Positions 14,794 to 58,644 of a stretch of 64,000 nt of DNA are shown one piece after another. This DNA comes from Candidatus Azobacteroides pseudotrichonymphae. GTDB lineage: Bacteria > Bacteroidota > Bacteroidia > Bacteroidales > Azobacteroidaceae. Positions within the stretch are counted from its first letter, which is position 1; every line of letters starts with the position of its first letter. Below the pieces are notes generated by a model that made no database searches, was not told where the DNA came from, and saw nothing but the letters and a program-made list of their open reading frames with translations. The translations under genes and the position numbers were made by a program. The stretch is from assembly GCA_002091395.1 (NCBI GenBank), contig AP017914.1, positions 1-64,000 on the forward strand. The letters run 5' to 3'.

Positions 14794-17700
14794 ATGATAT
14801 TATTTTTTGAAGTATCTACTAAAGATGTTATAGCAGTGCAAACAGTTGAAAAGTTGAGCAGTACAGATATAGATAAATTACTTTGGCTTTTTGGAGATTC
14901 AAGATTATTAAAAAATGATCGTGTAAATGTAATGATGGTCGGTCCTCGTCGCGAAATTGTTACTTCTTGGAGTACTAATGTAGTAGAGATTACTCAAATT
15001 ATGAATATAAATGGGATTATAAGGGCAGAAAAATTTTTTTTTATATCTCAGTTTCTTTCTGATGATGAGAAGAAGACTATATGTGATCCAATGCTTCAGC
15101 AATTGTATTACGGTCTTGAACAAGATGTTTTTGTTGTGAATAGAAAACCAGAAGATGTTATTTTTGTTGAAGACATTTCTGCTTTTAATTTTAGAGAAGG
15201 ATTAGCTTTAACTGTTGAAGAAGTAGCATATCTTGATGGAATAAGTACAAAAATGGGTAGATTTCTTACTGATAGTGAAGTGTTCGGCTTTTCACAAGTT
15301 AATTCTGAACATTGTAGGCATAAAATATTTAATGGAACATTTATAATCGATGGATTTAAAAAAAAACATACCCTTTTTCAATTAATAAAAAAAACATCTG
15401 AAAAAAATTTCAATTATTTGATTTCAGCATATAAAGATAATGTAGCTTTTAATAAAGGTCCAATGATTAAACAATTTTATCCTGTAACAGGAGACAAACC
15501 TGATTTTTTTAAAATAAAAAAAATAGAAACTGTTATTTCTTTAAAGGCTGAGACACATAATTTCCCAACTACTGTTGAACCTTTTAATGGGGCTTCAACA
15601 GGAAGTGGTGGAGAAATAAGAGATCGCTTGAGTGGAGGGCGTGCGTCATTGCCAATTGCCGGAATAGCTGTATATATGACATCTTACCCTTGGAAAATAG
15701 ATTTAAATAAAAAATGGTTGTACCAAAATCCAGAACAAATTTTGGTAAAAGCATCTAATGGAGTTTCTGATTTTGGTAATAAATTCGGACAACCGCTTAT
15801 TTGTGGATCAGTTTTAACTTTTGAACATCAAGAAAATGAGAAGCAATATGGATATGATAAAGTAGTTATGTTAGCCGGAGGTATAGGCTTTGCAAAATTG
15901 GAAGATGCTTTAAAAGGTGAAGTGAAATCAGGAGATAAAATAATTGTTCTTGGAGGTGATAATTATCGAATTGGTATTGGTGGAGGTGCGGTATCTTCAG
16001 TTGATACTGGAGAATATGATATTGCTATAGAATTAAATGCTGTACAAAGATCAAATCCAGAAATGCAAAAGAGAGTAGCAAATGTTATTCGCACTCTTGC
16101 TGAATCAAGTAAAAATCCGATTATTTCTATCCATGATCATGGAGCTGGTGGACATATAAATTGTTTTTCTGAATTAGTAAAGGATACTGGAGGATATATA
16201 GAAATAGATAAATTACCAATTGGTGATTTAACTTTATCAGCAAAAGAAATCATTGGGAACGAAAGTCAAGAACGAATTGGATTAGTGTTGAAAGCAGAAA
16301 ATATTGATTTAGTAAGCAAAATAGCTCGACGTGAGCGTTCTCCGATGTATATTGTTGGTGAAATTACTGAAAATATGAAATTTGTTTTTGTACAAAAAAA
16401 TGGAAAATGTCCTTTAAATATGTATTTAAATGATTTTTTTGAAGAACCACCTCATGCTATTATTAAAGATGTAACTATTAAAAACACATTCAAAAATCCT
16501 AAATATAATGAAAGTGATATTTTCAAATATATTGAAAAAGTTTTAAGATTGGAAGCGGTTGCTTGTAAAGATTGGTTAATTAATAAAGTAGATCGTTCAG
16601 TAACTGGGAGAGTTGCTTGTCAACAGTGTGTTGGAGAAATACAATTGCCATTGAGTGATCTTGGAGCAGTTTCTTTAGATTTTTGTGGAGTAGTTGGTAT
16701 TGCAATATCTATTGGCCATGCTCCACAAATAGGACTAGTTGATCCTTCTGTTGGTTCTATTATGTCTATAGCAGAAGCTTTGACAAATATTGTATTTGCT
16801 CCTTTAAAGAATGGATTGAAAAGTGTTTCTTTAAGTGCTAACTGGATGTGGCCCTGTAAAAATATTGGTGAAGATGCTCGTTTATATAGCGCAGTGGAAA
16901 GTTGCTCAAAGTTTGCTTGTGATTTAGGAATCAATATTCCAACAGGAAAAGATTCTTTATCTATGACACAAAAATACAAATGGGGAAAAGTATATGCACC
17001 TGGTACTGTTATTATTTCGGCTTCAGCAGAAGTTTTTGATGTTAAAAAAATTGTTTCTCCTGTGTTGATTAATGATATTGATACAAAAATTTATTATATC
17101 GATTTTTCTTCAGATTGTTTTAAATTAGGAGGGTCTGCTTTTGCTCAGTCTTTGAGTACAGTTGGAGATGATATTCCGACTATAAATGATGTACAATATT
17201 TCAAAAAAACTTTTAATGTTATTCAAAAATTGATAAAAAATGGATTTATTTTATCAGGACATGATATTTCAGCTGGTGGTATTGTAGTTACATTATTAGA
17301 AATGTGTTTTGCTAATAGTGTAGGAGGAATGAAAATTTGTTTGTCGCATTTGGGAACTGAAAATATTAATATAATTAGAAAACTTTTTAGTGAAAATTCT
17401 GGAATTATTATTCAAGTAAAAAATACAAATTTTGTTGAAAAATATTTAAATCAGAAAAAAGTTAGATGGGTTAATATTGGATATCCTATAAAAAAACGTT
17501 ACATTTTAGTGTCTGATTCGGGAAAACAGTTTCAATTAGATGTAGACTATCTTCGTGATATATGGTATTATCCTTCTTATCTACTTGATAGGAAGCAATC
17601 TGGTATTATAGCGTCAAAAGAACGGTTTGAAAATTATAAAAATCAAATATTAATAAATATTTTTCCAAAATCTTTTTGTGGAAAGTTGTCCGGACATGGT

Positions 17701-18480
17701 ATTTCTATTAACAGAAATACCATGTCCGGCATTAAAGCTGCTATTATACGTGAAAAAGGAACTAATGGTGATCGAGAAATGGCATATGCTTTATATTTAG
17801 CTGGGTTTGATGTAAAAGATGTTCATATGACTGATTTAGCTACTGGACGTGAAACACTGGAAGAAATTAATATGATCGTTTTTTGTGGAGGGTTTTCAAA
17901 TTCAGATGTGTTGGGTTCAGCTAAAGGATGGGCAGGGGCTTTTCGGTACAATGAAAAATCAAAAATAGCTTTAGAAAAATTCTATGCTCGTGATGACACA
18001 TTGAGTCTTGGTGTTTGCAATGGTTGTCAATTGATGATTGAACTTAATTTGATTTACCCAAAATATAAAAAAAAAACATTGATACTTCAAAATAATTCTC
18101 ATAAATTTGAGTCTGGGTTTATATCAGTTGAAATTCCTAAAAATTATTCAGTAATGTTTAGTACATTGTCAAATAGTAAACTAGGCATCTGGATAGCTCA
18201 CGGAGAGGGTCGATTTCAATTGCCAATGCTGGAACATAAATATCATATTATTGCTAAATATGTTTATAATTCTTATCCAGGAAATCCAAATGGATCAGAT
18301 TATAATGTTGCCGGTGTTTGTTCAGAAAATGGGCGCCATATAGCCTTAATGCCTCATATTGAAAGGGTAATATTCCCATGGCAGTGGGCATATTACCCTA
18401 AGAATCGTAGTAAAGATGAAATAAGTCCATGGATAGAAGCATTTATCAATGCTTTCAAATGGATTTCAAATACCAATTGA
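14794..18480 (+). CDS. purL: Phosphoribosylformylglycinamidine synthase, large form
   Basis: 1,228-aa single-chain FGAM synthase of de novo purine synthesis: it transfers ammonia from glutamine to FGAR using ATP. Seen: the SQVNSEHCRHK motif (about 170) and the ETHNFPTTVEPFNGASTGSGG ATP-binding stretch (about 252-272) of the first synthetase half, a second AIRS-like half with NIPTGKDSLSM, and a C-terminal class I glutaminase with nucleophile Cys1075 in GVCNGCQLM and the triad His1188/Glu1190 in MPHIER. Length matches the fused form of Bacteroidetes and enterics. A 17-bp perfect inverted repeat sits in frame between the synthetase and glutaminase parts (residues about 966-979), and an 18-bp one spans the stop codon into the ClC gene. 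Confidence 0.97.
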   Translation: MILFFEVSTKDVIAVQTVEKLSSTDIDKLLWLFGDSRLLKNDRVNVMMVGPRREIVTSWSTNVVEITQIMNINGIIRAEKFFFISQFLSDDEKKTICDPMLQQLYYGLEQDVFVVNRKPEDVIFVEDISAFNFREGLALTVEEVAYLDGISTKMGRFLTDSEVFGFSQVNSEHCRHKIFNGTFIIDGFKKKHTLFQLIKKTSEKNFNYLISAYKDNVAFNKGPMIKQFYPVTGDKPDFFKIKKIETVISLKAETHNFPTTVEPFNGASTGSGGEIRDRLSGGRASLPIAGIAVYMTSYPWKIDLNKKWLYQNPEQILVKASNGVSDFGNKFGQPLICGSVLTFEHQENEKQYGYDKVVMLAGGIGFAKLEDALKGEVKSGDKIIVLGGDNYRIGIGGGAVSSVDTGEYDIAIELNAVQRSNPEMQKRVANVIRTLAESSKNPIISIHDHGAGGHINCFSELVKDTGGYIEIDKLPIGDLTLSAKEIIGNESQERIGLVLKAENIDLVSKIARRERSPMYIVGEITENMKFVFVQKNGKCPLNMYLNDFFEEPPHAIIKDVTIKNTFKNPKYNESDIFKYIEKVLRLEAVACKDWLINKVDRSVTGRVACQQCVGEIQLPLSDLGAVSLDFCGVVGIAISIGHAPQIGLVDPSVGSIMSIAEALTNIVFAPLKNGLKSVSLSANWMWPCKNIGEDARLYSAVESCSKFACDLGINIPTGKDSLSMTQKYKWGKVYAPGTVIISASAEVFDVKKIVSPVLINDIDTKIYYIDFSSDCFKLGGSAFAQSLSTVGDDIPTINDVQYFKKTFNVIQKLIKNGFILSGHDISAGGIVVTLLEMCFANSVGGMKICLSHLGTENINIIRKLFSENSGIIIQVKNTNFVEKYLNQKKVRWVNIGYPIKKRYILVSDSGKQFQLDVDYLRDIWYYPSYLLDRKQSGIIASKERFENYKNQILINIFPKSFCGKLSGHGISINRNTMSGIKAAIIREKGTNGDREMAYALYLAGFDVKDVHMTDLATGRETLEEINMIVFCGGFSNSDVLGSAKGWAGAFRYNEKSKIALEKFYARDDTLSLGVCNGCQLMIELNLIYPKYKKKTLILQNNSHKFESGFISVEIPKNYSVMFSTLSNSKLGIWIAHGEGRFQLPMLEHKYHIIAKYVYNSYPGNPNGSDYNVAGVCSENGRHIALMPHIERVIFPWQWAYYPKNRSKDEISPWIEAFINAFKWISNTN
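17690..17729. repeat. 17-bp perfect inverted repeat inside purL
   Basis: Arms CCGGACATGGTATTTCT (17690-17706) and AGAAATACCATGTCCGG (17713-17729) with a 6-base loop, entirely coding. It lies at the linker before the glutaminase domain. GC-richer than its surroundings. Confidence 0.9.
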
Positions 18481-18494
18481 AAGCATTGATAAAT
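18441..18494. repeat. 18-bp inverted repeat across the purL stop and ClC start
   Basis: ATTTATCAATGCTTTCAA (18441-18458) and TTGAAAGCATTGATAAAT (18477-18494) are perfect complements with an 18-base loop. The purL stop TGA (18478-18480) is in the right arm, and the likely ClC start ATG is the first codon of the loop (18459). Confidence 0.9.
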
Positions 18495-20285
18495 ATTAAA
18501 AACATATTAGTTTTTGTTTTTCGTTTGCATTTGGAAAAAATACGTATTAAAGAATCACATTTTATTCTTATACTTAGTTTTGTTACTGGTGTTTTTAGTG
18601 CAATTTCATGTATTCTATTAAAGACCTGTATTCATATTGTCCAATATTATGTAGGTGGTGTAGTAAATATTTTTACTAAAAAATCGTATTTTATTTGTCC
18701 TGTAGTTGGTATTTTATTGTCTGGATTATTTGTAATGTATTTTGTAAGGGATAATATAGAGCATGGAATTACTAAAATTCTCATTGCCATTTCCAAACGA
18801 AGAGGTCGTCTTAAAATACATAATTTATGGACTTCATTAATAGCAAGTTCTATTACAATAGGTCTTGGAGGTTCTGTTGGATCAGAAGCTCCAAGTGTTT
18901 TAACTGGCGCAGCTATTGGATCCAATTTAGGAAGATTGTTTAAAATGGATCAAAAAACGCTTATATTGTTGATAAGTTGTGGTGCTGCTGGAGCTATTGC
19001 AGGGATTTTTAAAGCACCAATTGCAGGACTGCTTTTTACAATTGAAGTTTTAATGCTAGACTTGACTACTGTTTCAGTCCTACCACTTTTAATTTCTTCT
19101 ATAACAGCGGCTAGTATTTCTTATTTTTTTACAGGTATTAATCCAATATTTAAGTTTAATCAAGTAGTACCTTATGATTTGAAAAATCTTCCATGTGTGT
19201 TATTGTTAGGTGTAATTTGTGGATTAGCTGCTATTTTTTTTATTCGAATTTTAAATTGGATAGAAAACTTGTTTTCAAGTTTAAGAAATTATTGGCAACG
19301 TTTTGTTATTGGAGCACTTATATTAAGTATTATTATTTTTTTATTTCCGCCTTTGTATGGGGAAGGTTATGATGTTATTAACAAAATTATTAATAATCAA
19401 CATAATCACATATTTAATACTATATTTTTCACAAATTTATTGAATACTAATAATTACTATGAATTGTTCTTTTTATTTATATTTATTTTTTTTTCAAAAA
19501 TTTTTGTGATAGGAGCTACAGTAGGTGGTGGTGGGTGTGGTGGAATTTTTGCTCCATCATTATTTCTAGGATGTTTTATTGGATTTATTTTTTCGCATTT
19601 ATTTAATTTCTTTCTTGGGAAAGAATTTTTTTTATCAGAAGAGAATTTCTCATTAATAGGTATGGCTGGTATGATGTCATCAATATTGCACGCTCCATTG
19701 ACATCAATTTTTTTAATTGCCGAATTGACTGGTGGATTTAATCTTTTTTTGCCATTGATGATCGTTTCTAGTAGTTCATATTTCACTATTTTGTTTTTTG
19801 AAAAATATAATATTCATTCTATGCGTTTAGCAAAAGAAGGAAAGCTTCTAACGCATAATAAAGATCATGCTGTATTGACTTTATTAAACATAAATACACT
19901 TATAGAAAGTGATTTTAAAACAGTTTCTCCTGAAATGACATTGCGAGATGTTGTAAAAATTGTAGCACAATCTAATCGAAATATTTATCCTGTTATTGAT
20001 AGTAACGGTATTTTACATGGAATTGTGTTATTAGATGATATTCGTAGTATCATTTTTCGCTCGGAATTATATGATCAATATAGTGTTGAAAGATTTATGA
20101 TTTGTTCATTAACAAAAATTAGATCTGATATGTCTATGGTCAAAATTATGAATTTGTTTGAAGATGATAAAGTATGGAATTTGCCAGTTGTAGACAAAAA
20201 AGGACGGTATATTGGGATGATATCCAAGTCTAAAATATTTAGTTTTTACAGAAATGTGCTGCAAAATAATTTTGAAAATGATTAA
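18459..20285 (+). CDS. ClC-family chloride channel or transporter with CBS domains
   Basis: Integral membrane ClC protein, 608 aa from the chosen start. Seen: the ion-path motif GLGGSVGSEAP with the gating-type glutamate Glu143, later membrane helices including GATVGGGGCGGIFAPSLFLG (the GxFxP region), and two cytoplasmic CBS domains at the C terminus (about 470-590: NRNIYPVIDSNGILHGIV and VWNLPVVDKKGRYIGMI). Whether it is a channel or a Cl-/H+ exchanger is not decidable here. Start choice: the frame is open upstream to an ATG at 18429 deep in purL; the ATG at 18459 overlaps purL by 22 bases; TTG codons at 18477 and 18486 are alternatives. The junction is folded into an 18-bp hairpin, so translation may be coupled to purL. 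Confidence 0.9.
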   Translation: MDFKYQLKALINIKNILVFVFRLHLEKIRIKESHFILILSFVTGVFSAISCILLKTCIHIVQYYVGGVVNIFTKKSYFICPVVGILLSGLFVMYFVRDNIEHGITKILIAISKRRGRLKIHNLWTSLIASSITIGLGGSVGSEAPSVLTGAAIGSNLGRLFKMDQKTLILLISCGAAGAIAGIFKAPIAGLLFTIEVLMLDLTTVSVLPLLISSITAASISYFFTGINPIFKFNQVVPYDLKNLPCVLLLGVICGLAAIFFIRILNWIENLFSSLRNYWQRFVIGALILSIIIFLFPPLYGEGYDVINKIINNQHNHIFNTIFFTNLLNTNNYYELFFLFIFIFFSKIFVIGATVGGGGCGGIFAPSLFLGCFIGFIFSHLFNFFLGKEFFLSEENFSLIGMAGMMSSILHAPLTSIFLIAELTGGFNLFLPLMIVSSSSYFTILFFEKYNIHSMRLAKEGKLLTHNKDHAVLTLLNINTLIESDFKTVSPEMTLRDVVKIVAQSNRNIYPVIDSNGILHGIVLLDDIRSIIFRSELYDQYSVERFMICSLTKIRSDMSMVKIMNLFEDDKVWNLPVVDKKGRYIGMISKSKIFSFYRNVLQNNFEND

Positions 20286-20672
20286 TAAAAAAATAATTTA
20301 CAACAAAGATAAAGATAGTTTAATTCATTTTTTTAAAATTTGACTGGAAAATTTTTGAAAACTGGTATTGATTGTTCAGTTAACAATTTCAATATGTAAG
20401 TATTTTTAACTATTGGTGTTGTTTGTTGTTTTTAAATTTTTATATTAATTATATTGACTGTTTTGCTGTTGCAATCATGTTAATAATGATTATAAATATA
20501 AAAAATTATAATGAAGAATTTAAAAATCGTTGAATTAATTGGTATTTCATTTTGTTGCATATTTTTACTATGATTAAAACAATTATGATTTTTTCTAAAG
20601 CTACTTGGCTATAAATTTTATATTTTATGACATTGAAAATAATAAAAAAGAAAATTTTTAAATTTTAGTCTA
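20286..20672. other. Spacer without recognised gene
   Basis: 387 bp of AT-rich DNA between the ClC gene and metK. No promoter matching the consensus, no riboswitch-like structure and no RNA gene recognised. Confidence 0.55.
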
Positions 20673-28589: not shown

Positions 28590-30062
28590 AATAAATTAAT
28601 ATACATTAGTTATGTAGATAAATTGTTTTTAATTTGGTTTGTTTTTTTGTTGTAGCTTTTATATATATGTTGTAATATTGTTTTATGAAAAATTTTAGTG
28701 TGAAATTATTTTTTCATAAAATTTGAATTGATCTAAATTGATTTTCAATTTTTTTGTTAAAAAAAGTAATATTCAAATATATTGTATTTAATTAATTTAA
28801 TAGTTATAAAAAAATGATAGATAAATATTATTAATAGTTATAGATTTGGTCAATGTAAAATTGCTTATTATTAGATAATTAGTGAAATAAAAAATAAATT
28901 TTTTAATCAAATATAGTTTAATAATATTCCGATATCACTAACTGTATTTACAGAAATAATATTTCGCAAACGAAAAAATAAATTGATGCTTTAATTTTTT
29001 TTGATTTATGATTATTAAAAATAAGTTATTTATTTGTTTAGTATTATTGGTCCAATAATATTCGGACAAGGGTGTTTGTTATTATCATTTAATCAGTGGA
29101 AATGTATTCATATAAAATTAGCAATTCTGAATTTAACTAGTTGATCGAATAAAAACGTATCGATATATGTTCATCAAATGATAAAATTGTGAAGATAGAC
29201 TGTTTTTCACAAAAAAATATTGAATAAATTAAATAAATAGTAAGCAAGAATAATTTGATTTTTCTTACATTTTCTATACAGCACAGTGCCATAATGAAAT
29301 CCAAATGGTACTATTTGTTTGCAAATACATTTTGTCTATAGTACAAAATGATTATTTTGGTAAATAGGTTCAATTTTTTATATTCTAAATATTTTTACCT
29401 GTGATGCGTTTTTATAAAATAATACTTAGCTTCGTAGTGTACTAAATTGGATTGTCTGTAGTTATATATAATATAACTAATTAATGTAAATTTAATGGTT
29501 TCGTTATTATTTAGAAGTGTTAATTTTTCTCTTTTGTTTATTCCACAATTAAGTATTTATTAAAATAATATAGTCTATATATTTGTTTGAATTTTTACTA
29601 TTGTTTCTGTATGATACAATACAATAGTTTTTTGAGAAATACTACAGTTAATAAAAAAAATCTGTTTGACAAATTAACAAGTTTACTATGCATTATTTGT
29701 GTTTTTTTCATTTAAAAATCAATAATTTTATCCAATTATTGATTTTTGTATGGTTGAAATGTTGTTGATAGTGGAATTTTTGAAAATTTGATATTGTGAA
29801 CGTATTTATTGAAAATCAACTATCCTAATAGTTTTTTAATTGTTTGAATAAATAAATAATTTCACCGTCAACTAGCTTTCTATTTATACTAGTAATATTT
29901 TTCAGTTCCATTTTTGCCAATTACAGTCCATATTTCATTTTTATTAATTTTCTATGGAAAAGAGTATAAAAAAGATAATTTATCAGTGCTAGAGATTTTT
30001 TAAAAAGCTACTTTTATAAGTAAAATGTTTAATGTTATTGAAATTTTTAGCAATCAGGTGAT
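28590..30062. other. Long spacer without recognised gene
   Basis: 1,473 bp, the largest empty stretch here. No frame of useful length on either strand. Small inverted repeats occur (TATTATTGG/CCAATAATA at 29042-29060; a 14-bp one at 29714-29747). Possibly the remains of decayed genes, but nothing identifiable is left. Confidence 0.6.
29714..29747. repeat. 14-bp inverted repeat in spacer
   Basis: AAAAATCAATAATT (29714-29727) and AATTATTGATTTTT (29734-29747), perfect, 6-base loop. It has the A-stem-T form of a bidirectional terminator and lies about 315 bases beyond the 3' end of trmB. Confidence 0.6.
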
Positions 30063-30764
30063 TTAAATATCTATTCCAGATTTTGGTTCAAAGTATATTT
30101 CTTTTTTTTGTAAAAAAAAAGAAATATACTTGATTTTCAATCCTTTATTGAGCCATTGTTGTTCATAAAAAGTTTTAATGGTAAGTATTTTATCTGTTTG
30201 ATAATTTTTATATAAGTCATTTGTTTGAAACAGAATTCTGAAGTTATTAGCTTCTATAATTTTACGAGTATAATTGAATAAAAAATCGCTATCTGTTTTT
30301 AGATGAATGATTCCATTATTTATTAAAATATTGCTGTAGTATTTTATAAAACGGGCAGATATTAGTCTTTTGTTTATTTTTTTTATTTGTGGATCTGGAA
30401 ATGGTATCCAAATTTCAGATATTTTATTTTGTATGAAAAAATGATTAATAATGTCTATATTGGTACGCAAAAATGCTACGTTATTTAAGTGTTCCATTAA
30501 TGCTTGCTTAGCTCCTGAATAAATTCTTGCTCCTTTTATGTCTACTCCTACAAAATTTTTGTTTGGAAATAATCTTGCTAAATTGGTTGTATATTCACCT
30601 TTTCCACAACCAAGCTCGAGGATGAGCGGGTTATCGTTCTGTGGAAATAGATTAGATAATTTATTTTTTATTTTGATTTTTTTTTTTAAAACTGTGTAAG
30701 GACATTGAAAAACATTTGAAAATTTCTCTATTTCTTTAAATTTTTGTAATTTGGTCTTTCTCAT
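30063..30764 (-). CDS. trmB: tRNA (guanine-46-N7)-methyltransferase
   Basis: 233-aa SAM-dependent enzyme forming m7G46 in tRNA. Seen: the SAM motif LILELGCGKGEYTTNLARLF (about 47-66), FVGVDIKGARIYSGAK and the IWIPFPDPQIKKINKRL block that carries the family's FPDPW-like signature. Full length. A 19-bp perfect hairpin lies in the last 25 codons, including an A/T homopolymer run that encodes FFLQKKE. Isolated gene between large spacers. Confidence 0.94.
   Translation of the reverse strand: MRKTKLQKFKEIEKFSNVFQCPYTVLKKKIKIKNKLSNLFPQNDNPLILELGCGKGEYTTNLARLFPNKNFVGVDIKGARIYSGAKQALMEHLNNVAFLRTNIDIINHFFIQNKISEIWIPFPDPQIKKINKRLISARFIKYYSNILINNGIIHLKTDSDFLFNYTRKIIEANNFRILFQTNDLYKNYQTDKILTIKTFYEQQWLNKGLKIKYISFFLQKKEIYFEPKSGIDI
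30091..30131. repeat. 19-bp perfect hairpin in the trmB 3' coding end
   Basis: AAGTATATTTC plus eight T (30091-30109), a 3-base loop, then the exact complement (30113-30131). Coding for the trmB C terminus. The homopolymer part makes chance pairing easier than at the other palindromes. Confidence 0.85.
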
Positions 30765-31223: not shown

Positions 31224-31305
31224 AAAATATCTAAAATTGATTGGTTTTAAATTTTTAATTTGCGAGATTTTCTGTTTGTAAGTATTGTACAATAAAAAAA
31301 TAATG

Positions 31306-31998
31306 ATGAATATTGCATTAATAGGTTATGGCAAAATGGGGCATGAAATAGAAAAAATAGCACTTGAACGTGGACATTGTATTACATCAATCATAGATAC
31401 AAAAAATCAGAGAGATTTTAATTCTGATAATTTTATTCATTATACTGATGTTGCAATTGAATTTACTTGTCCGAAATCAGCATTTAACAATTATATGAAA
31501 TGTTTTGAAAGAAATATTCCTGTTGTAACAGGGACTACTGGTTGGTTACAGAATATTTGGAAAATTAAAAAAGAATGTCTAGAAAATAAAAAAACATTTT
31601 TCTATGCTTCTAATTATAGTATTGGTGTTAATTTATTTTTTGCTGTTAACAAATTTTTTGCAAAATTGATGAATACTTTTAATCAGTATGATGTACTTGT
31701 AGAGGAAGTTCATCACATTAAAAAGTTAGATACGCCAAGTGGTACGGCTATCACGTTAGCAGAAGGAATAGTAAAAAATATTGAACGCAAATCTTTTTCT
31801 AATTTACCTATTCGTTCTAAACGAATAGGTAAATTCCCTGGGATTCACACAGTTATTTATGAATCTGAGTCTGATATTATTACTATTAGACACAATGCAA
31901 AAAATAGGAGGGGATTTGCTTTTGGAGCAATTTTAGCAGCTGAGTATACACAAAAAAAAACTGGATTTTTAAGTATGGATGATTTGTTAAAGTTATAA
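31306..31998 (+). CDS. dapB: 4-hydroxy-tetrahydrodipicolinate reductase
   Basis: Second committed step of the diaminopimelate/lysine pathway; works with DapF at 5.5 kb. Start chosen at the second of two adjacent ATGs (31306), giving MNIALIGYGKMG, 230 aa. Seen: NAD(P)-binding GYGKMG, the TGTTGW turn (about 78), ASNYSIGVNLFF and the substrate-binding EEVHHIKKLDTPSGTAI (about 135-151). A 16-bp perfect inverted repeat lies in frame around residues 166-177, in a stretch that is variable in the family. lepB follows after 53 bases, then the WbqC-family gene; this gene order is common in Bacteroidetes. Confidence 0.96.
   Translation: MNIALIGYGKMGHEIEKIALERGHCITSIIDTKNQRDFNSDNFIHYTDVAIEFTCPKSAFNNYMKCFERNIPVVTGTTGWLQNIWKIKKECLENKKTFFYASNYSIGVNLFFAVNKFFAKLMNTFNQYDVLVEEVHHIKKLDTPSGTAITLAEGIVKNIERKSFSNLPIRSKRIGKFPGIHTVIYESESDIITIRHNAKNRRGFAFGAILAAEYTQKKTGFLSMDDLLKL
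31801..31835. repeat. 16-bp perfect inverted repeat inside dapB
   Basis: AATTTACCTATTCGTT (31801-31816), loop CTA, AACGAATAGGTAAATT (31820-31835). Fully coding. Confidence 0.92.
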
Positions 31999-33462: not shown

Positions 33463-34098
33463 ATGATTGTGAAAAATGTTTTTTTATCTACAGCATATTT
33501 GGCACCTATTGAATATTACATACAACTTGCTAATGCAAAAAATATAGTTATTGAAAGTCAAGATAATTATGTAAAACAAACTTATAGAAATAGATGTGTT
33601 ATTGCTTCGTCTAATGGGATACAATCTTTGAGCATACCAATTTCTAAACATAATTTTTGTAAATGCCTGATACGAGATGTTTATATAGCTGAAAATATAA
33701 ATTGGCAACAATTGCATTGGAATGCAATTGTTGCCAATTATAGCTCAACACCTTTTTTTCAATATTATAAAAGTATTTTTAGACCTTTTTATGAAAAAAA
33801 ACAAAAATTTTTATATGATTTCAATGAAGAATTAAGAGAATTAATTTGTTCATTATTGGGTATTTCTCCAAATATTTTTTATACATCTACATATATGAAA
33901 AATATAAATTCTGATGTATTAGATTTGCGAGAAAAAATACATCCTAAAAAAGTATCATTTATTAAAGATTTTAAATCTTATTATCAAGTATTTGAAAAAA
34001 AAATTGGATTTTGTCCTAATTTGAGCATAATTGATTTACTTTTTAATTTAGGTAAGGAAGCAATATTTTTACTTAAAAGGCAAACAGAGAGCCGTTAA
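33463..34098 (+). CDS. WbqC-family protein
   Basis: 211-aa protein of the WbqC-like family (Pfam group seen in O-antigen loci and, in Bacteroidetes, regularly after lepB). Seen: an N-terminal LSTAYLAPIEYYIQLANA block (about 6-23), IPISKHNF, and a central NWQQLHWNAIVANYSSTPFF (about 79-98) with the HWNAI...Y.STPFF core. Biochemical role is not established; involvement in surface glycan modification is an inference. A 19-bp perfect palindrome covers the NWQQLHWNAIVAN codons. The 3' end overlaps the tRNA-Thr gene on the other strand by 9 bases. Confidence 0.82.
   Translation: MIVKNVFLSTAYLAPIEYYIQLANAKNIVIESQDNYVKQTYRNRCVIASSNGIQSLSIPISKHNFCKCLIRDVYIAENINWQQLHWNAIVANYSSTPFFQYYKSIFRPFYEKKQKFLYDFNEELRELICSLLGISPNIFYTSTYMKNINSDVLDLREKIHPKKVSFIKDFKSYYQVFEKKIGFCPNLSIIDLLFNLGKEAIFLLKRQTESR
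33700..33739. repeat. 19-bp perfect inverted repeat inside the WbqC-family gene
   Basis: AATTGGCAACAATTGCATT (33700-33718), two G, AATGCAATTGTTGCCAATT (33721-33739). It codes for one of the most conserved parts of the protein. Confidence 0.93.
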
Positions 34099-34163
34099 TG
34101 AGATTTGAACTCATGACATACGCGTTACGAATGCGTTGCTCTACCAATCTGAGCTATAACGGC
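34090..34163 (-). tRNA. tRNA-Thr (anticodon CGU)
   Basis: Acceptor GCCGTTA/TAACGGC, anticodon loop TTCGTAA, T stem ATGAG/CTCAT. The anticodon stem ACGCA/CGCGT has an A31-C39 mismatch next to the loop. Its 5' end lies 9 bases from a 26-bp palindrome. Confidence 0.9.
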
Positions 34164-34172: not shown

Positions 34173-34230
34173 TTATGTACACATGGATACATAAAAATTA
34201 TATTATTTTTATGTATCCATGTGTACATAA
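34173..34230. repeat. 26-bp perfect inverted repeat at AEC gene end / tRNA-Thr leader
   Basis: Left arm 34173-34198, 6-base loop, right arm 34205-34230 (core TACACATGGATACATAAAAA). The right arm encodes the last residues of the AEC protein; its stop (34198-34200) falls at the loop edge; the left arm leads into tRNA-Thr. Longest palindrome in the window. Confidence 0.93.
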
Positions 34231-35155
34231 AAAATAAATTAGAAAAAAAATTGTAATACAAGAGCAGGCTGTTGTTAGTATGACTATTTGGACTGCGAGA
34301 TTATAGTCGCCATGCATGTTTTTTGCCATAATACAGCTTGCTGTAGCTGTTGGTGTTGCAAAAACACCTAGTATTATAGCTAGATTTATATTTCTAAGTC
34401 CTAAGTAAATACTTATGATAATCATAATAATAGGTATAATTATTAATCGTACAATTGTTATTGTAATTACTTTAATAAAATTACCTCGTAACATTTTAAT
34501 TTTAAAATCCCCTCCTATAATAAATAAAGCCAAAGGAATAGCAAGTTTTGATAATTGATCAATCGGCACTTCAATAACTTTTGGTAGTTTTAATTGTGTA
34601 ATTACCATTATTAATCCTGATACACTACCAATTATTAAAGGGTTTTTTACGATATGTTTTATGATATCTTTTAATGTTATTTTATCATTCTTATTATTAT
34701 CAGAGTAAATAGCTAATATGATTACTGATGATATATTATATAGTGGTATTATTACGCACATTAATAAAGAAATTTTCCCAATTGATGTATTACCATACAT
34801 TTTTGTAATTATTGGGGCCCCATAGATTATTGCATTACTACGGTAAATTCCTTGAATTATGACTCCTTTTTGTTTTTTTTTTTATTAACATGGGGACTAT
34901 TAATACTGAAAAAAAGATTGTAAGAATTATTCCACATATTATAATGTAAAATAACAACCTATCTGGTGAATTTTCTTTGCAAGAAAATTTTATATTTTGA
35001 AATAGCATTATTGGTAAACAAAAGTTAAATACAAATCGATTCAGTTGATTGAGAAAATCTTCACTAACAAATCTAATACACTTTGAAATATAGCCTATTA
35101 CCATTATAATTAATAATGGAGCAACTACATTAAAAGAAGATATTAAATTTTCCAT
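34198..35155 (-). pseudogene. AEC-family transporter, frameshifted at an A11 tract
   Basis: Auxin-efflux-carrier-type permease, broken into two frames: an N-terminal part (34838-35155, MENLISSFNVVAPLLIIMV..., with LNRFVFNFCLPIMLF) and a C-terminal part in another frame (34198-34863 region onward: GVIIQGIYRSNAIIYGAPI, later IIGGDFK, VFATPTATASCIMAK). The break is at a run of 11 A on the coding strand (34873-34883); ten would restore one frame of about 318 aa, normal for the family, with about ten membrane helices. Everything else looks intact, so this is a fresh mutation, a sequencing slip, or a gene read by transcriptional slippage. Substrate unknown. Confidence 0.85.
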
Positions 35156-35620
35156 CTACAATTTTTTAATTTTCGTTATTTATTTTTATTGTGATAAAAC
35201 ACTGTACATACAATATAATGCAATTAGATGTTATATTTTTGATAAAATATAACATCTAATTGCATTGATGTATTTTATTTATATAAAATTATTTACACAC
35301 TAATTAATGAATGTAATTTTTATTGATTAAAAACAATTTAACATACAGTAGTTTTTTTTATTATATTGAATAATGCACTAACTTTTATAGCTATTTTTTA
35401 GATTTTAATCCGGCTTGTATTATGTATAATCGTTCTTTTCCATATGTAAGTTAGTTAATTTTGTTGAAAATAATACTTATTAAGAGTTATTATTTCAAAT
35501 TTAATTATGAATTTGTTTTAACATAAAATAGATAGTCATTTTAGATTGTAATAATTTAATTTTATATAGAAGTGTAATTCGGTGATGTATAGTGAATAAT
35601 TATTTATACTTGAATTTGTA
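35156..35620. other. Spacer with palindrome
   Basis: 465 bp between lpxC/fabZ and the AEC gene (both minus). Holds the 23-bp palindrome at 35217-35266; otherwise nothing recognised. Confidence 0.55.
35217..35266. repeat. 23-bp perfect inverted repeat in spacer
   Basis: Arms 35217-35239 and 35244-35266 (AATGCAATTAGATGTTATA...), 4-base loop TGAT. No T-run follows beyond the stem. It may end lpxC/fabZ transcripts, but it is far longer than usual terminators. Confidence 0.9.
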
Positions 35621-37012: not shown

Positions 37013-38225
37013 TATTATATGTTTTTAATATTTTTATTGAAATGATTTTTTAAATTACGCAATTTAATTAAACGAAATATTTTTTAATTAAAAAAACAAA
37101 TTCAATAAAAGTGAAAATGTTAATTTTTTGTTTTTTATCATGATTTTAAACATTCATTTTATTTGGTTTATTTGTTTTTTACTCTTGATCAACAATTTTG
37201 TTTGTTTCAAAAATATTTATATATGAATTTTTCAAATTTCTTGAATGTAACAAATTCAAGAAATTTTTATTTAAATTTTAATTCTTGAATTAAATGTTTA
37301 TTTTGGTATGTTATGAAAATTAATTATTCGTTATTAACATTTTAATTGTACAAAATTTGTATTGTATAATTTGGTTATTTTCTTTCTTAATTTATCACTA
37401 GTTTATTTTACTTTATAAGTATTTAATATTTTTTATTTTTAAAATGAATGATTGTTTTGCTATTTTATTTTTTAATTCTGGCTAAGCTGTATACAGGTTT
37501 AAAATAAGACTATCATGGCAATACTAAGTTATAATATAGCACCATAAACTATAGATAATTTCCCTATAAAAAGAGATTATAACCAATTTTTATATTATTA
37601 TAAGTATGTTTATAAATATGTTTATAATTATGTTCAAGTATTTTATTTGTAAGTAATTCATAAAATAATTTTTTAAAAATATTCCTTAAATTGAATATAA
37701 TGCTTATTGTGGATGAATCGTATAAATTAAAATTTTAATAGTTTAATTTATTTTAATTTGGAATACTTTTCATCTAATAGTTTTGTTTTTCTCTTTAAGA
37801 AATTTTGTTAATTATTGTTACAATATTTAAATCTTTACAAGAATTATTTTTTATTTATGATTTGTATTTTACTATCTTAGTGTACGTTATAATAAAAATA
37901 TTTACAATTTTTTTTTTGAGAAAAATTAATGCTTACTTTTAAAATGAGACACTTTTGCACATAAACTAATAAAAATCAGATTAGTTTTTGCCTAAATATT
38001 TAGTTAATGTAACACTTTCAATTTTTTCTTAAAAGTTCGATTAAACATTTTTATATAAAATCACGATAAAAATCATGATAATAAATATTGCAAATGTAAT
38101 TGTATGTATTAACAGAATTAAAAATGATAGGTAAGTTCCGTTACTATAACAAATTTGTTAAATATAGTTTGTTTTCGATTGGTGATTAAGTTTTTTAAAA
38201 TTTACATTTTATTTTTGGTCATATA
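37013..38225. other. Long spacer without recognised gene
   Basis: 1,213 bp between rpsA and lpxC/fabZ (both minus strand), about 80% A+T by eye. Holds a 13-bp inverted repeat at 37234-37266. No gene remnant or RNA recognised. Confidence 0.6.
37234..37266. repeat. 13-bp inverted repeat in spacer
   Basis: AAATTTCTTGAAT (37234-37246) and ATTCAAGAAATTT (37254-37266), 7-base loop, T-rich flanks. Confidence 0.6.
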
Positions 38226-42904: not shown

Positions 42905-44081
42905 AAATATTGTTTCACAAGTACAACTAAAAAATAGTTATTATAAATTTTTCAGATAATTTTTGCAAAAATATATAACCGCACGTTACAAATTATATAT
43001 AATAGCAAAATTATATATAAATTTTTATTACTTTAATATTCGCTTAAGTTTTAATATAAACTGGAATAAATCAAAATCATAATTTAAGTATTACAAATTT
43101 TAATGCTGTATCATTCAATATAAATAAATTTCAATATGGACAAAGCTAATGTTAATTTTTATATTTTTACAACTTTAGAGTTCAGATTTGTCTAGATTGT
43201 TTTATTAATTGTTTTACATGAATTGTAGAATATTTTGTGAAATATCAAAAAATTATTTAATAGTTTGTATTGTAAAGTTCTTTATTTATAAATTTTCAGC
43301 ATTTATAGATGTAGTATTTAAGTTTTGTTATAAATAAATTTTTTCAAAAACTTGTGTAATATGTTTAGAGTTAGCTGTATGATAATATTAATTAAGTTTA
43401 TATTTTAATTCGATGTTGTAGTTTACAGTAATTTAAATTTTAAGTGTTATGAAAAATTGCTAATTCTAAGACATTAATTTATTGGGCTCAGTACTATAGA
43501 TTATATTAATAAAGTGAATAACTTAAATATCCAAAATACATAATAATTTTTTTTTTAACAAAAAAGCATTGGATTAGAAAAAATTTTGTCTTAATTTGTA
43601 TGGAAAGAATTGTGAAAAATTGTTTATCATGAATGTGATATGTTAAAATAAATATTCGAAAGAATTTTGCAAAAAGTAATTTTTGTAGAATAATGATTTA
43701 GAGTTAATTTTTGGATATTATTGAGGATAATTTTCAGAAATATATATATTTAATTGCTTTTTGTTTTTGTAAAATTTTACTATGCAAATAGTATGTAGTC
43801 AATCTATTTTTTTTGATGATTTTTTAGTAAAAGATAATTTTTGTGTTAAAAAATTATCTTTTAGCTAGGATTTTTGAACTTTAAACTAAAATCAAGGACT
43901 AATTGTAAAAAATGTAGTGAAATTATCTTTTTAATTAGAAATATTATTGAAAAGAAAATTGCAAATAAATTTTGAAGTAATATTCTAAGTTTTAGTTTGT
44001 GTTATTAAGTTTGTATATTGATTATCTTGAATTAGTTGTAATTAATATGCTGAATAATTGACAATTTTTTTATTAGAACAA
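42905..44081. other. Long spacer without recognised gene
   Basis: 1,177 bp between the divergent tRNA cluster and the phosphorylase gene. Holds a 15-bp inverted repeat (43828-43863) and TAAGTTTG (44006-44013), a -7-like box without partner. No gene remnant recognised. Confidence 0.6.
43828..43863. repeat. 15-bp inverted repeat in spacer
   Basis: TAAAAGATAATTTTT (43828-43842) and AAAAATTATCTTTTA (43849-43863), perfect, 6-base loop. Confidence 0.7.
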
Positions 44082-45330: not shown

Positions 45331-45360
45331 ATGTATATGTATAGCATTATACATATACAT
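45331..45360. repeat. 13-bp inverted repeat in spacer
   Basis: ATGTATATGTATA (45331-45343), loop GCAT, TATACATATACAT (45348-45360), followed by further GTATACAT copies; a simple TA/CA-rich tract. Confidence 0.6.
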
Positions 45361-52891: not shown

Positions 52892-52937
52892 ATCATTGTG
52901 TATTTTATGATTAAAATTTAATATGATTTACTAAAAA

Positions 52938-53711
52938 ATGAAAAAATTGACTATCATTAAAGTTGGAGGAAAGATTATAAAAGATCCTGATGTAAGGAAT
53001 CACTTTATTAAAAATTTTTCAATTATTGTTGGCTATAAAATGTTGATTCATGGCGGTGGAGCTGTTCTTGATGAATTTGCTAAAGGAATTAATGTTGAAA
53101 CTAAAGTAGTTAATGGGCGTAGAATTACCACTGAAAAGATTTTAAAATTAGCTGTTATGATTTATGCTGGATTAATTAACAAAGAAATTGTTTCTAAGTT
53201 ACAATCGTTTGGAATAAATGCTATAGGTTTTACTGGTGCTGATGCTGATATAATACGGTCCAGTATGAGATTAGTAAGAAATAATGTTAATTATGGTTTA
53301 GTTGGTGATATTCAGAAAATTAACGTGCATTTATTAAATAAACTTATAAACAATGGTTATACAATTGTGTTTGCTCCAATTACTCATGATGGGGAAGGGC
53401 AATTGTTAAATACTAATGCAGATAGTATAGCAGGTGAAGTATCAAAAATCTTAGTTTGTAATTATGATATTCGATTAGTTTATTGTTTAGATAAAAATGG
53501 GGTTTTGGTTGACGAAACAGATGAAAATAGTATTATTAAAGAATTAAGTTATGTTGATTTTCAGAAATATAAAAAAGATGGAGCTATTAGTCGTGGAATG
53601 TTGCCTAAGTTAGAAAATGCTTTTTCAGCTCTTTTTTCTGGAGTAAAGGAAGTAGTAATTACTTGTGCTTCTGATATTAATTGTCAGAATGGTACGTATT
53701 TGAAATTATAA
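52938..53711 (+). CDS. argB: Acetylglutamate kinase
   Basis: Second step of arginine synthesis, phosphorylating N-acetylglutamate (or N-succinylglutamate, which some Bacteroidetes use). 257 aa, amino acid kinase fold. Seen: IIKVGGKIIKDPD (about 5-17), LIHGGGAVLDEFAKG (about 36-50), NTNADSIAGEVSKIL (about 155-169) and a C-terminal GMLPKLENAFSAL block (about 217-229). No other arg gene in the window. purD follows after 33 bases. Confidence 0.92.
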   Translation: MKKLTIIKVGGKIIKDPDVRNHFIKNFSIIVGYKMLIHGGGAVLDEFAKGINVETKVVNGRRITTEKILKLAVMIYAGLINKEIVSKLQSFGINAIGFTGADADIIRSSMRLVRNNVNYGLVGDIQKINVHLLNKLINNGYTIVFAPITHDGEGQLLNTNADSIAGEVSKILVCNYDIRLVYCLDKNGVLVDETDENSIIKELSYVDFQKYKKDGAISRGMLPKLENAFSALFSGVKEVVITCASDINCQNGTYLKL

Positions 53712-53744
53712 ATTGTGAAGATTTAAGATAATTTTAGAAGAAAA

Positions 53745-55007: not shown

Positions 55008-55176
55008 TAATATGTTATAAAGTAAAAAGTTTAAGAGTTGTCAATTTTATAAATGAATTATAGTTTTTAATAATCTTAGATTATATCTAACAAATTGTTA
55101 GCGTTTTTATTTGTTTGATCAAATATTCCAATTTTATTTAAATATAAATAATATGGATAGGTTTAGAATAACAAAT

Positions 55177-55277
55177 GGGCACGTTGGACTATATCACACC
55201 GCTACAACCATATGCCCTTGCTGCTGTCAAGCCCTGGGGAATTTAATATGGGAGCTGGTTGTATAGACCACTTGCCC
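55177..55277 (-). ncRNA. ffs: Signal recognition particle RNA (small, 4.5S type)
   Basis: About 101 nt on the minus strand folding into one long hairpin: GGGCA pairs with TGCCC at the ends, CTATA with TATAG, CAACCA with TGGTTG. The apex reads CCAGG-GCUUGACAGC-AGCAAGG: the M-domain binding internal loops (CCAGG and AGCAAGG) are as in E. coli 4.5S RNA, but the tetraloop is UGAC closed by GCU/AGC, where GGAA is usual. URRC-type tetraloops are an accepted alternative in the SRP RNA family. It targets membrane and exported proteins with Ffh and FtsY. Ends are set by pairing. Confidence 0.82.
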
Positions 55278-55495
55278 TGTAACTAAGTTAAAAATATAAT
55301 TTTAAAAAAAAAATAAAAATTGTGATAAAATCGTATTACTATACTATAGCTATAAAAATTATAATTTGTACATAAAAATAAATTAATATTGCTTTTATTT
55401 TTTCTCTACATAAATAATATTGTTTTTGGTTATAAAATGTAAGTTTTTATATTTATAAAATTAGTATTTTTGGGAGTTTTTTATTTTTATTAATT

Positions 55496-56773
55496 ATGTT
55501 GAAAAGAGCGGCATACTATACATTTGGTTGTAAATTAAACTATGCAGAAACTTCTGCTATAGAAAATTATTTTTTACATGCCGGAATTAATACAGTAAAA
55601 ACAGGAGAAAATCCAGATGTTGTAATTATTAATGCTTGTTCAGTGACAAAAGGAGCAGATAGAAGATGTCATAATTTAATTCACTATATTAAAAAAAAGT
55701 ATCCGAATACTTTCTTGGTGGTTACTGGTTGCTATGCTCAATTGTATAGCGAAAATTCTGTGGAAATTGATAAAATTGATTTACTAGTAGGATTAAAAGA
55801 AAAGATGAATTTGCTCAAATATGTTTTAAAGAAAAAAAAAGGAGTAATAGTATCTTCAATCGGTAAAACTAAGTTTACTTATGCATATTCTTATGGAAAT
55901 AGAACACGTTCGTTTTTGAAAATACAAGATGGATGCGATTACACTTGCAGCTACTGTATTATTCCATCATTAAGAGGGGAAAGTAGAAATGGAAAAATAT
56001 CAGATATAGTTAAAAGTGTAAAAAAATTATTTGAAAAAGGAGTAAAAGAAATTGTTTTAACGGGAGTTAATATTGGAGATTTCGGGAAAAGTACAGGAGA
56101 AAATTTTTTAAACTTGTTGGAAAAATTGGATGAAGTTGATAGTATTGGTAGATTCCGCATTTCTTCTATCGAACCAAATTTATTGAGTGATGAAATTATA
56201 GAATTTGTTGCATCATCTGACCATTTTGTGCCTCATTTCCATATACCTTTGCAATCTGGTAGTGACACTGTGTTACAGTTGATGCGTCGCAAGTACGATA
56301 CAGAATTAATTAAATCTAAAATAAAGAAGATAAAATTTCTTATGTCAGATGCATTCATAGGACTTGATATTATTGTTGGGATGAGAGGAGAAAATAATGA
56401 ATGTTTCAACGAAAGTCAGTTTTTCTTAGAAAATTTGCCATTCAGTCAATTACATGTATTTCCTTATTCAGAACGTATAAGTTCTAAAGCTTTAAGTATT
56501 AATCAAGAAGTTTCTTCAATAGAAAAAAATGAACGATGTAAAAAAATGATAGTACTGTCAGAAAAAAAATATAAAGATTTTTATTTTTCACAGATAGGAA
56601 CGAAGCATACTGTTTTATTTGAAAATATTTCTAATGGTGATAAAATGTATGGGTTTACTGAAAATTATATAAAAGTAGAAACTATATATAATAAAAAGGC
56701 TGTTAATCAATTATTCAATATAACATTAGGAGGATGGAATAACGAAATGACAGCACTAACTTTGAATTTTTGA
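55496..56773 (+). CDS. mtaB: tRNA t6A37 methylthiotransferase
   Basis: Radical-SAM enzyme turning t6A37 into ms2t6A37 in ANN-reading tRNAs; 425 aa. Domains: N-terminal UPF0004 with cysteines in FGCKLNYAETSAIE (about 10-23), NACSVT and GCYAQ; the radical-SAM core with CDYTCSYC (C-x3-C-x2-C, about 149-156) and CIIPSLRGESR; a C-terminal TRAM-like part. The FGCKLN start and length separate it from MiaB and RimO. It depends on t6A, which TsaC (22.8 kb) helps make. A 13-bp hairpin follows the stop and the glycosyltransferase gene begins 57 bases downstream. Confidence 0.94.
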   Translation: MLKRAAYYTFGCKLNYAETSAIENYFLHAGINTVKTGENPDVVIINACSVTKGADRRCHNLIHYIKKKYPNTFLVVTGCYAQLYSENSVEIDKIDLLVGLKEKMNLLKYVLKKKKGVIVSSIGKTKFTYAYSYGNRTRSFLKIQDGCDYTCSYCIIPSLRGESRNGKISDIVKSVKKLFEKGVKEIVLTGVNIGDFGKSTGENFLNLLEKLDEVDSIGRFRISSIEPNLLSDEIIEFVASSDHFVPHFHIPLQSGSDTVLQLMRRKYDTELIKSKIKKIKFLMSDAFIGLDIIVGMRGENNECFNESQFFLENLPFSQLHVFPYSERISSKALSINQEVSSIEKNERCKKMIVLSEKKYKDFYFSQIGTKHTVLFENISNGDKMYGFTENYIKVETIYNKKAVNQLFNITLGGWNNEMTALTLNF

Positions 56774-56802
56774 TATAGAAAATTTTTACAAAATTTTCTA
56801 TA
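56774..56802. terminator. 13-bp hairpin after mtaB
   Basis: TATAGAAAATTTT (56774-56786), loop TAC, AAAATTTTCTATA (56790-56802), starting at the mtaB stop. No downstream T-run, so its strength as a terminator is uncertain; the next gene starts 28 bases later. Confidence 0.45.
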
Positions 56803-56830
56803 ATCTGTTGTTTTATATTAATAATCAATA

Positions 56831-57838
56831 GTGAAACAAGCAGCTGTTGTTATTCTTAATTGGAATGGATGTGATCTGTTGAGAAGGTTTTTACCATCGC
56901 TGTTAATGTATACTCCTAAGAAAAATGTTGATATTTTTGTTGTTGATAATGGATCTACAGATAACTCTTTAGAGTTTTTACATTCTTATTCTCATACATT
57001 AATTGTACTATCGTTGAATAAAAACTATGGATTTGCAGAAGGATATAATAAAGTACTATTAAATATTGATTATGAATATGTAGTTTTACTAAATTCTGAT
57101 GTTGAAGTTAGCAAAAGTTGGTTTAATTCAGCAATAGATTATTTAAAAATTCATAATGATGTTGCGGCTGTACAGCCAAAAATTTTGTCATTAACTGATA
57201 AATATTCATTTGAATATTCTGGAGCAAGTGGAGGGTTTTTAGATAGGTATGGATATCCTTTTTGCCGTGGGCGTATTTTTTCTACGGTAGAAAAAGACAA
57301 TGGACAATATAATAATCCGATACGTATCTTTTGGGCAAGTGGAGCATGTTTATTTATTCGATTAAAAGATTTTAAAATGGCAGGTGGCTTTGATCCCGTG
57401 TTTTTTGCCCATCAGGAAGAGATAGATTTGTGTTGGAGGTTGAATTTACTTGAAAAAAAAATTATGTGTTTGCCATCATCTTACGTTTATCATATGGGAG
57501 GAGCAACACTTCCTAAAGAATGTTCTCAAAAAATATATTTGAATTATAGAAATAATCTTTTAATGCTTTATAAAAATCTGCCGTATATATACTATCATGA
57601 AGTGATGGTTGTTCGTTTTTTTTTGGATTATTTATTTGCTATTTATTATTTGTTGACTGGCCAATTTTATAATTTTTTTTCAATATTGAAGGCAAGGTTA
57701 GATTTTATAAAATTAAAAAAACGGTATCGAATTATTCGAAGTAATAACAAATTACCACGAATACTTTTTCGTAAAAGTATACTTTTTGAGTACTATTTTA
57801 ACAATAAAAAAAAATGGAGTTCATTATATAGAATCTGA
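56831..57838 (+). CDS. Family 2 glycosyltransferase (rhamnosyltransferase-like)
   Basis: 335-aa GT-A fold enzyme using a GTG start (56831; no ATG nearby). Seen: AVVILNWNGCDLLRRFLPSL (5-24), IFVVDNGSTDNSLEFL (about 36-51), the metal-binding region in VVLLNSDVEVSKSWF (about 85-99, with a D-x-D-like LNSDVE), the acceptor block FWASGACLFIRLKDFKMAGG and FFAHQEEIDLCWRLN. A C-terminal hydrophobic stretch (about 257-280) suggests membrane association. Probably adds a sugar to a surface polysaccharide; donor and acceptor unknown. Other glycan genes are not adjacent. Confidence 0.88.
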   Translation: MKQAAVVILNWNGCDLLRRFLPSLLMYTPKKNVDIFVVDNGSTDNSLEFLHSYSHTLIVLSLNKNYGFAEGYNKVLLNIDYEYVVLLNSDVEVSKSWFNSAIDYLKIHNDVAAVQPKILSLTDKYSFEYSGASGGFLDRYGYPFCRGRIFSTVEKDNGQYNNPIRIFWASGACLFIRLKDFKMAGGFDPVFFAHQEEIDLCWRLNLLEKKIMCLPSSYVYHMGGATLPKECSQKIYLNYRNNLLMLYKNLPYIYYHEVMVVRFFLDYLFAIYYLLTGQFYNFFSILKARLDFIKLKKRYRIIRSNNKLPRILFRKSILFEYYFNNKKKWSSLYRI

Positions 57839-58135
57839 AATGTGAAACATAAAATTTTTGTTTTTTGTAGTATGTTATTAATAATTAAAATATGTAGGAA
57901 AAATTTATAGCAAATTATTGACAATTGAATGAGATAAAAAGCTCATACAATAGTTTGAAACTAAAATACAGTAATATTTGTAAATATTTTTGTTGAGAAA
58001 CTAATTTTTATAAAAAAAAAATGTTCAGCTCTTATTTAAATATTAATCCATTTTTATAATTTTTTAAGTAAAAAATGAATTAATTTTCTATTTCATACTA
58101 TCAATACTACCATTATATGGTAATTTTTAGTGATT

Positions 58136-58543
58136 TCATATATTTTCAGAATCTATTTTAGTTTTACTGACAGATTTTTGAAAATTGTTAATTTTTGACC
58201 GAATTAATACTTGTTTATTATTTTCCCATATTTCAAATTTATTTTTCATTTCTGTTTCAGAAATAACACCTTTGGAAATTCCATTTAGTAAGTGTTTTTT
58301 AAAAAAAACACCTTTATGTGAAAGTATGCTTTTTGTTGTATTTGTTGGTTGTGCACCTACGCCTAGCCAATATAGAGCCCTATCGAATTTTAAATTAATT
58401 GTTGCAGGATTTGTATTTGGATTGTAAAACCCAATTCTTTCTATAAATTTCCCATTTCTTGGAGCCTTGCTATCTGCGATCACTATGTGATAAAATGCAT
58501 AATCTTTACGACCATGCCTTTGTAATCTTATCTTTGTTGCCAT
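58136..58543 (-). CDS. rpsP: 30S ribosomal protein S16
   Basis: Start placed at the internal ATG that yields [20 protein letters not shown], the S16 signature; the frame is open nine codons further upstream (to 58570). 135 aa: the globular S16 core (about 1-80, with [20 protein letters not shown]) is followed by a C-terminal extension, as in other Bacteroidetes but shorter. S16 is needed for 30S assembly. The 25-bp palindrome lies 44 bases upstream of the start. Confidence 0.94.
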
Positions 58544-58587
58544 TTTAAACTTAAATTGAATTAGATTCATAATTAAATTAGTATTTC

Positions 58588-58644
58588 AATACTGACTACA
58601 AATGTAGATTTTTTTTTTTAAAATCTACATTTGTAGTCAGTATT
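58588..58644. repeat. 25-bp perfect inverted repeat upstream of rpsP
   Basis: Arms 58588-58612 (AATACTGACTACAAATGTAG...) and 58620-58644 with a loop of seven T. Each arm holds TACATTTG reading outward, a perfect -7 promoter box: on the minus strand toward rpsP (58606-58599) and on the plus strand toward prfB (58626-58633). No TTG at the right distance was found for either. Confidence 0.92.

Follow-up and report, generated by a model that had tools for sequence, protein, structure and literature searches.

As palindromes of bacterial genomes, Rickettsia palindromic elements (which lie inside genes) and REP-type repeats are related copies of one family. In Escherichia coli, quasi-palindrome mutations perfect a palindrome by template switching, and recB mutants show very high rates of them (PMC6357072). 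Template switching has also been invoked for the origin and maintenance of perfect hairpins in RNA genes (PMC8794818), for the homogenisation of arms in genes of yeast (PMC8604942), and for the perfect inverted repeats (IRs) of Nematomorpha mitochondria, which lie in functional protein genes and have both arms coding (PMC6649704). Endosymbionts are enriched among IR-rich bacteria (PMC10434271). Here we analyse the perfect IRs of "Candidatus Azobacteroides pseudotrichonymphae" ProJPt-1, which lives as an endosymbiont in Pseudotrichonympha, a protist of the termite Prorhinotermes japonicus (PMC5478533), both in a window of 64 kb (bases 1-64,000 of chromosome 2) and across the genome.

The IRs of ProJPt-1 resemble the E. 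coli system (the Ripley model, with thyA and lacZ reporters; PMC6357072) in that an arm appears to template its partner in place across a short loop; they differ in being a natural, genome-wide load with arms of up to 28 bp, in which we infer the strand switch and the donor side is inconsistent. The mitochondrial IRs have arms of up to 284 bp and some of their sites are common to four species (PMC6649704), whereas those described here reach 28 bp and are lineage-specific. Unlike the Rickettsia and REP-type families, 80 of the 90 IRs of ProJPt-1 share no 14-mer, and nothing has been inserted. The process itself is already known, and ProJPt-1 is an extreme case of it. A 2014 survey listed the genus as extreme for IRs; it predates the ProJPt-1 genome (2017), and its available text holds no loci, arm histories or nuclease content. 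The density in ProJPt-1 is 3.6 times that in CfPt1-2, the nearest relative compared. The main text of a survey of 118,019 genomes makes no mention of the genus (PMC13155455), and among the matches listed in open-licence papers none links palindromes in this genus to nuclease loss. The debate over what causes the prokaryotic IR excess and which enzymes limit it has drawn mostly on statistics and on reporters in E. coli. Two sisters with the same nuclease losses and a 3.6-fold difference in load are natural material for measuring the process, its multi-base effects on proteins and its other controls.

Excess and geometry of the perfect palindromes

We consider these palindromes to be probably the footprints of a mutational process, neither an element nor a regulatory system. 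The reading that we favour, with moderate confidence, is homogenisation of arms by fold-back (template-switch) synthesis, with more and longer palindromes partly a result of the loss of SbcCD, XseA and RecJ. During replication a nascent 3' end would fold back at a short imperfect palindrome, copy the other arm and then rejoin its template in register, and repeated rounds on either strand would turn quasi-palindromes into long perfect palindromes. Palindromes would persist in greater number and length partly because the lineage has lost SbcCD, exonuclease VII (ExoVII; XseA) and RecJ, enzymes expected to cleave hairpins or remove unpaired ends, while selection would remove outcomes that place stops in genes.

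The ProJPt-1 scan covered 796,485 of 1,016,909 bases and that of CfPt1-2 covered 800,000 bases of its 1,114,206-bp chromosome alone (PMC5478533); unless another cut-off is given, IRs have perfect arms of at least 14 and loops of 0-8. ProJPt-1 carries 90 such IRs (113/Mb), 50 with arms of at least 16 and 27 with arms of at least 20, and CfPt1-2 carries 25 (31/Mb), 10 and 2, a 3.6-fold difference in density. In the open reading frames (ORFs) conserved between the two genomes we counted 18 IRs in ProJPt-1 (9 with arms of at least 16), against means of 0.25 and 0.2 after 20 synonymous shuffles, and 6 in CfPt1-2 against 0.05. In ORFs of at least 200 aa the densities are 42/Mb and 16/Mb. Among other Bacteroidales (196 of 212 loci kept after removal of overlaps, 1.76 Mb coding, genus members included) there are 7 coding IRs, and the genus member G006 has 2 in 322 kb. 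The excess is genome-wide, and the window is not special within ProJPt-1. Density is 83/Mb on chromosome 1, 154/Mb on chromosome 2 and 260/Mb on plasmids.

The replicons of ProJPt-1 measure 774,998, 139,924, 26,809, 21,972, 20,721, 18,962 and 13,523 bp (PMC5478533, Table 1). The text of that paper gives 908,378 bp for both chromosomes; its table and the contigs sum to 914,922 bp. Palindrome density on the plasmids (L043-L047) is about three times that of chromosome 1. The first 49 kb (L352) of ProJPt-Bp1, a crAss-like phage of the same host, holds no IR with arms of at least 12, a weak comparison because relatives at its 41% GC would give only about two.

The repeats have the geometry of hairpins. 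When repeats were compared by spacer length (low-complexity seeds left out; 86 of the 90 short-loop IRs remain), inverted pairs on the ProJPt-1 chromosomes clustered at spacers of 0-20 bp, falling about a hundredfold from 9.79 per Mb per bp of spacer at 0-8 bp to 0.09 at 21-50 bp. Direct repeats have no short-spacer peak on these chromosomes; on the plasmids, spacers of 9-20 bp are common among them. Stems of at least 20 bp with zero, one, two and three mismatches number 27, 9, 8 and 25, such that perfect stems outnumber those with one or two, which we count in favour of homogenisation; a scoring scan gave 87, 12, 4 and 1.

Repeat geometry differs in CfPt1-2 and G006. Short-spacer repeats of CfPt1-2 comprise 44 direct and 23 inverted pairs, and direct repeats of at least 14 bp with spacers of 0-8 number 44 in 800 kb of CfPt1-2 and 4 in 704 kb of ProJPt-1, the reverse of the IR pattern. 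In G006 (L325-L344) inverted pairs are raised at spacers of 21-300 bp too, unlike in ProJPt-1, and invertible segments are one possibility.

In the window, a note made earlier from the sequence had listed seven perfect IRs (arms 16-26, loops 2-7) and one with an arm and loop of 18, and our scan recovered all eight with the same coordinates and perfect arms, together with five more:

17690..17729, arm 17, loop 6, inside purL (14794-18480, plus strand), in the variable linker directly before the glutaminase domain
18441..18494, arm 18, loop 18, spanning the purL stop and the start of the next ORF (18429-20285, plus strand)
30091..30131, arm 19, loop 3, inside trmB (30063-30764, minus strand)
31801..31835, arm 16, loop 3, inside dapB (31285-31998, plus strand)
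33700..33739, arm 19, loop 2, inside a WbqC-family gene (33463-34098, plus strand)
34173..34230, arm 26, loop 6, between convergent genes, taking in the last 33 bases of the AEC ORF (34198-34800, minus strand)
35217..35266, arm 23, loop 4, spacer
58588..58644, arm 25, loop 7, spacer
43828..43863, arm 15, loop 6, spacer (additional)
29714..29747, arm 14, loop 6, spacer (additional)
37234..37266, arm 13, loop 7 (additional)
45331..45360, arm 13, loop 4 (additional)
56774..56802, arm 13, loop 3 (additional)

In 200 order-2 Markov sequences the mean number of IRs with arms of at least 16 and loops of 2-7 was 0.005, against the 7 seen, and the longest arm in any of them was 16; the earlier note's view that chance does not account for the IRs is supported, and the excess over shuffled sequence for which it had proposed a whole-genome count holds (18 coding IRs against 0.25). 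Its gene labels are borne out by Pfam matches (PurL domains, Methyltransf_4 of TrmB type, DapB_N/DapB_C, WbqC and Mem_trans for AEC) and by a tRNA-Thr at 34089-34163 on the minus strand. The WbqC ORF runs at its 3' end into this tRNA gene. The AEC ORF, which matches only the C-terminal part of PF03547, may be truncated.

Lineage-specific change in the coding palindromes

The coding IRs have changed in register. For those with arms of at least 14, an alignment to CfPt1-2 was possible for 17 of 18, each of them without gaps inside the IR; in a wider set of 39 (arms of at least 12) gap columns occur in four, all at 27-31% identity. The earlier note's remark that purL and the WbqC-family gene seemed to have no inserted residues thus extends to the alignable set. 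The 15 of 18 coding IRs that were aligned, gapless and at least 55% identical entered a test of change between arms, and none of the 15 homologous sites in CfPt1-2 is a perfect palindrome. The suggestion that the palindromes, once perfected, were then kept accordingly finds no support beyond this lineage.

Change is clearly uneven between arms in dapB, and less clearly so in trmB and in a Dfp/CoaBC-type gene. Most DapB homologues read R-x-G-x-V-P-G (usually R-E-G-E-V-P-G) where the 3' arm of ProJPt-1 encodes R-I-G-K-F-P-G, and the 5' arm retains family-like residues; in trmB, 15 of 19 bases are kept relative to CfPt1-2 in one arm and 10 of 19 in the other. An alignment in which one arm is ancestral and the other rewritten, the outcome for which the earlier note had proposed comparing sister genomes, therefore describes dapB and, less clearly, the other two, and does not describe the set. 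In a CdaA-type diadenylate cyclase gene the 3' arm has a glutamate where most genus relatives have isoleucine or valine; by bases, both its arms differ about equally from CfPt1-2. The purL, WbqC and penicillin-binding-protein genes look mosaic in our reading of the alignments, with ancestral-looking residues in a different half of each arm, a pattern that would result if copying had run in one direction for the inner part and in the opposite direction for the outer part. The proteins diverge more over the IRs (0.435 vs 0.277, arms of at least 12), which fits rewriting and also survival in loosely constrained places.

The trmB of CfPt1-2 forms the N-terminal portion of an ORF of 710 aa (L177:15469-17601) that by eye runs into two ABC-ATPase-like halves and has an arm-14 IR of its own in the ABC part; the ProJPt-1 protein has 233 aa.

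Stops are rare in the palindromes. They occur in 2 of the 39 coding IRs with arms of at least 12, against 30.5% expected from overwriting blind to coding (P = 1e-4), and both lie in one ORF aligned at about 30% identity. The deficit means that selection probably acted on the palindromes in living cells.

Nuclease loss and the case for fold-back synthesis

ExoVII has a role in opposing template switching, and Exonuclease I reportedly aborts it. Whole-genome family searches over 39 genomes (ProJPt-1 and CfPt1-2 both 99% complete) gave no match for SbcD, SbcC, XseA or RecJ in ProJPt-1 or CfPt1-2, so that sbcCD, whose absence the earlier note had proposed to check, is indeed without a match. Among the 39 genomes XseA exceeded its cut-off in 32, RecJ in 30, SbcD in 12, MutS in 35 and RecA in 36; SbcC exceeded it in none, with some match in 21. 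Both MutS and RecA are over the cut-off in ProJPt-1 and CfPt1-2, and RecG, RuvB and RuvC are present. A local tblastn search of 78% of the genome had missed RecA; the loss that this suggested was rejected, the gene lying at G000:C2:130181-131143 of ProJPt-1. In the parts of the two genomes searched locally, E. coli RecB had short partial matches only, RecC and RecD had no match, and RecF and RuvA appeared in CfPt1-2 and not in the searched part of ProJPt-1.

Several results weigh against fold-back synthesis aided by nuclease loss. CfPt1-2 lacks the same four nucleases and yet has 3.6 times fewer IRs; G006 (87% complete) has no SbcD or XseA match, yet its 322 kb hold only 2 coding IRs; and MutS is retained in ProJPt-1. 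The gap between the sisters calls for more than nuclease loss, and other factors (AT content, host, replication) must therefore matter. The evidence that SbcCD cuts hairpins concerns a palindrome of 460 bp, far longer than these IRs (PMC4245961). In the test of 15 IRs, the more changed arm held 0.590 of the changes, against a binomial expectation of 0.621 (P = 0.93). Changes at adjacent newly paired positions fell on the same side in 95 of 168 cases against 83 expected (arms of at least 12; P = 0.02 within IRs, 0.055 across IRs), a weak departure from randomness that arms of at least 14 do not repeat (49 of 97, 47 expected). A relative-rate test on five genes, which used the 12 nearest outgroups and positions with a consensus of at least 60%, pointed to ProJPt-1 without reaching significance (11 vs 2 in IRs, 213 vs 94 elsewhere; P = 0.36). 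Finally, a shuffle gave 2 of the long stems with three mismatches against the 25 seen; these may partly be shorter perfect stems extended by chance.

A simple model with one donor arm is thus unconfirmed, its tract signal being weak and limited to arms of at least 12. In the earlier proposal that quasi-palindromes were perfected in place by template switching, the in-place, gapless and non-chance change stands, and the single rewritten arm is not general. We infer the strand-switch step, and the causal role of nuclease loss with it; if it does play that role, other reduced genomes with such losses should bear similar scars. A stronger version, which we regard as tentative and rather doubtful, makes ProJPt-1 a natural multiple nuclease mutant in which fold-back synthesis is a leading mutational force rewriting stretches of essential proteins, and palindromes grow outward stepwise with the arms alternating as donor, the inner and outer halves in purL, WbqC and the penicillin-binding-protein gene having been copied in opposite directions. 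If so, protein sequence would evolve partly by copying its own reverse complement.

Alternative sources of the palindromes

When tested, none of chance, a single mobile element, terminators and simple AT-richness proved sufficient. The alternative that survives best, although improbable, is that arms were homogenised by mismatch repair or gene conversion in extruded cruciforms or hairpins, with no strand switch by a polymerase. The mosaic arms of purL, WbqC and the penicillin-binding-protein gene, with donors on both sides, would suit it, as would the roughly even spread of changes over both arms and the presence of MutS, RecA, RecG, RuvB and RuvC; however, the mosaic pattern also fits successive template switches on both strands, and at about 16-28 bp the arms are short for extruding a cruciform or for recombination.

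Selection for RNA or DNA structure, with the hairpins acting as terminators, mRNA stabilisers or regulatory sites, is an unlikely explanation. Outside the conserved ORFs lie 72 of the 90 IRs, and spacer IRs are about twice as dense between convergent genes (0.62 per kb) as between tandem or divergent ones (0.32 per kb, the two being equal), such that some may terminate transcription. The spacer IRs are nevertheless mostly not terminator-like, for they lack a G+C-rich stem with a T-run: the arms have 15% GC in flanks of 21%, and a T-run adjoins 7 of 56, as at random positions (12.9%). The coding IRs, moreover, alter conserved residues (dapB) and are absent as perfect IRs from CfPt1-2.

Slightly less probable again is that extreme AT-richness and weak selection suffice without any special process. 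ProJPt-1 has the lowest GC (27%) among the genomes sampled, and arms of 10-11 exceed a Markov model some three- to fourfold in ProJPt-1, in CfPt1-2 and in other Bacteroidales alike; a larger supply of quasi-palindromes to start from may therefore come with AT-richness. Against its sufficiency, composition-matched nulls give almost no arms of at least 14, and coding IRs of the relatives do not rise from 70% to 34% GC; 306 kb of coding sequence at 34-38% GC holds no IR with arms of at least 12, and there is none below 34%, where only 37.5 kb of coding sequence was available.

Whole-genome amplification makes inverted chimeras, which counts for an origin of the palindromes in amplification or assembly. 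The ProJPt-1 DNA was indeed amplified, from cells of one protist, and its assembly, which drew on mate pairs, Sanger closing and PacBio checks, had 192-fold coverage of chromosome 2 and 250-fold of chromosome 1 (PMC5478533). These data, and stops in only 2 of 39 coding IRs where blind overwriting would give 30.5%, make such an artefact, a possibility that the earlier note had itself raised, very unlikely. Descent from a mobile palindromic element is the least credible source of all. A 14-mer is common to the members of five pairs of IRs; in four pairs both IRs lie on plasmids, and in the fifth a T-rich arm occurs in the trmB IR and in a plasmid IR. The arms of the other 80 of 90 are unrelated in this measure, as the earlier note had held for the window, and the alignable coding IRs carry no inserted residues.

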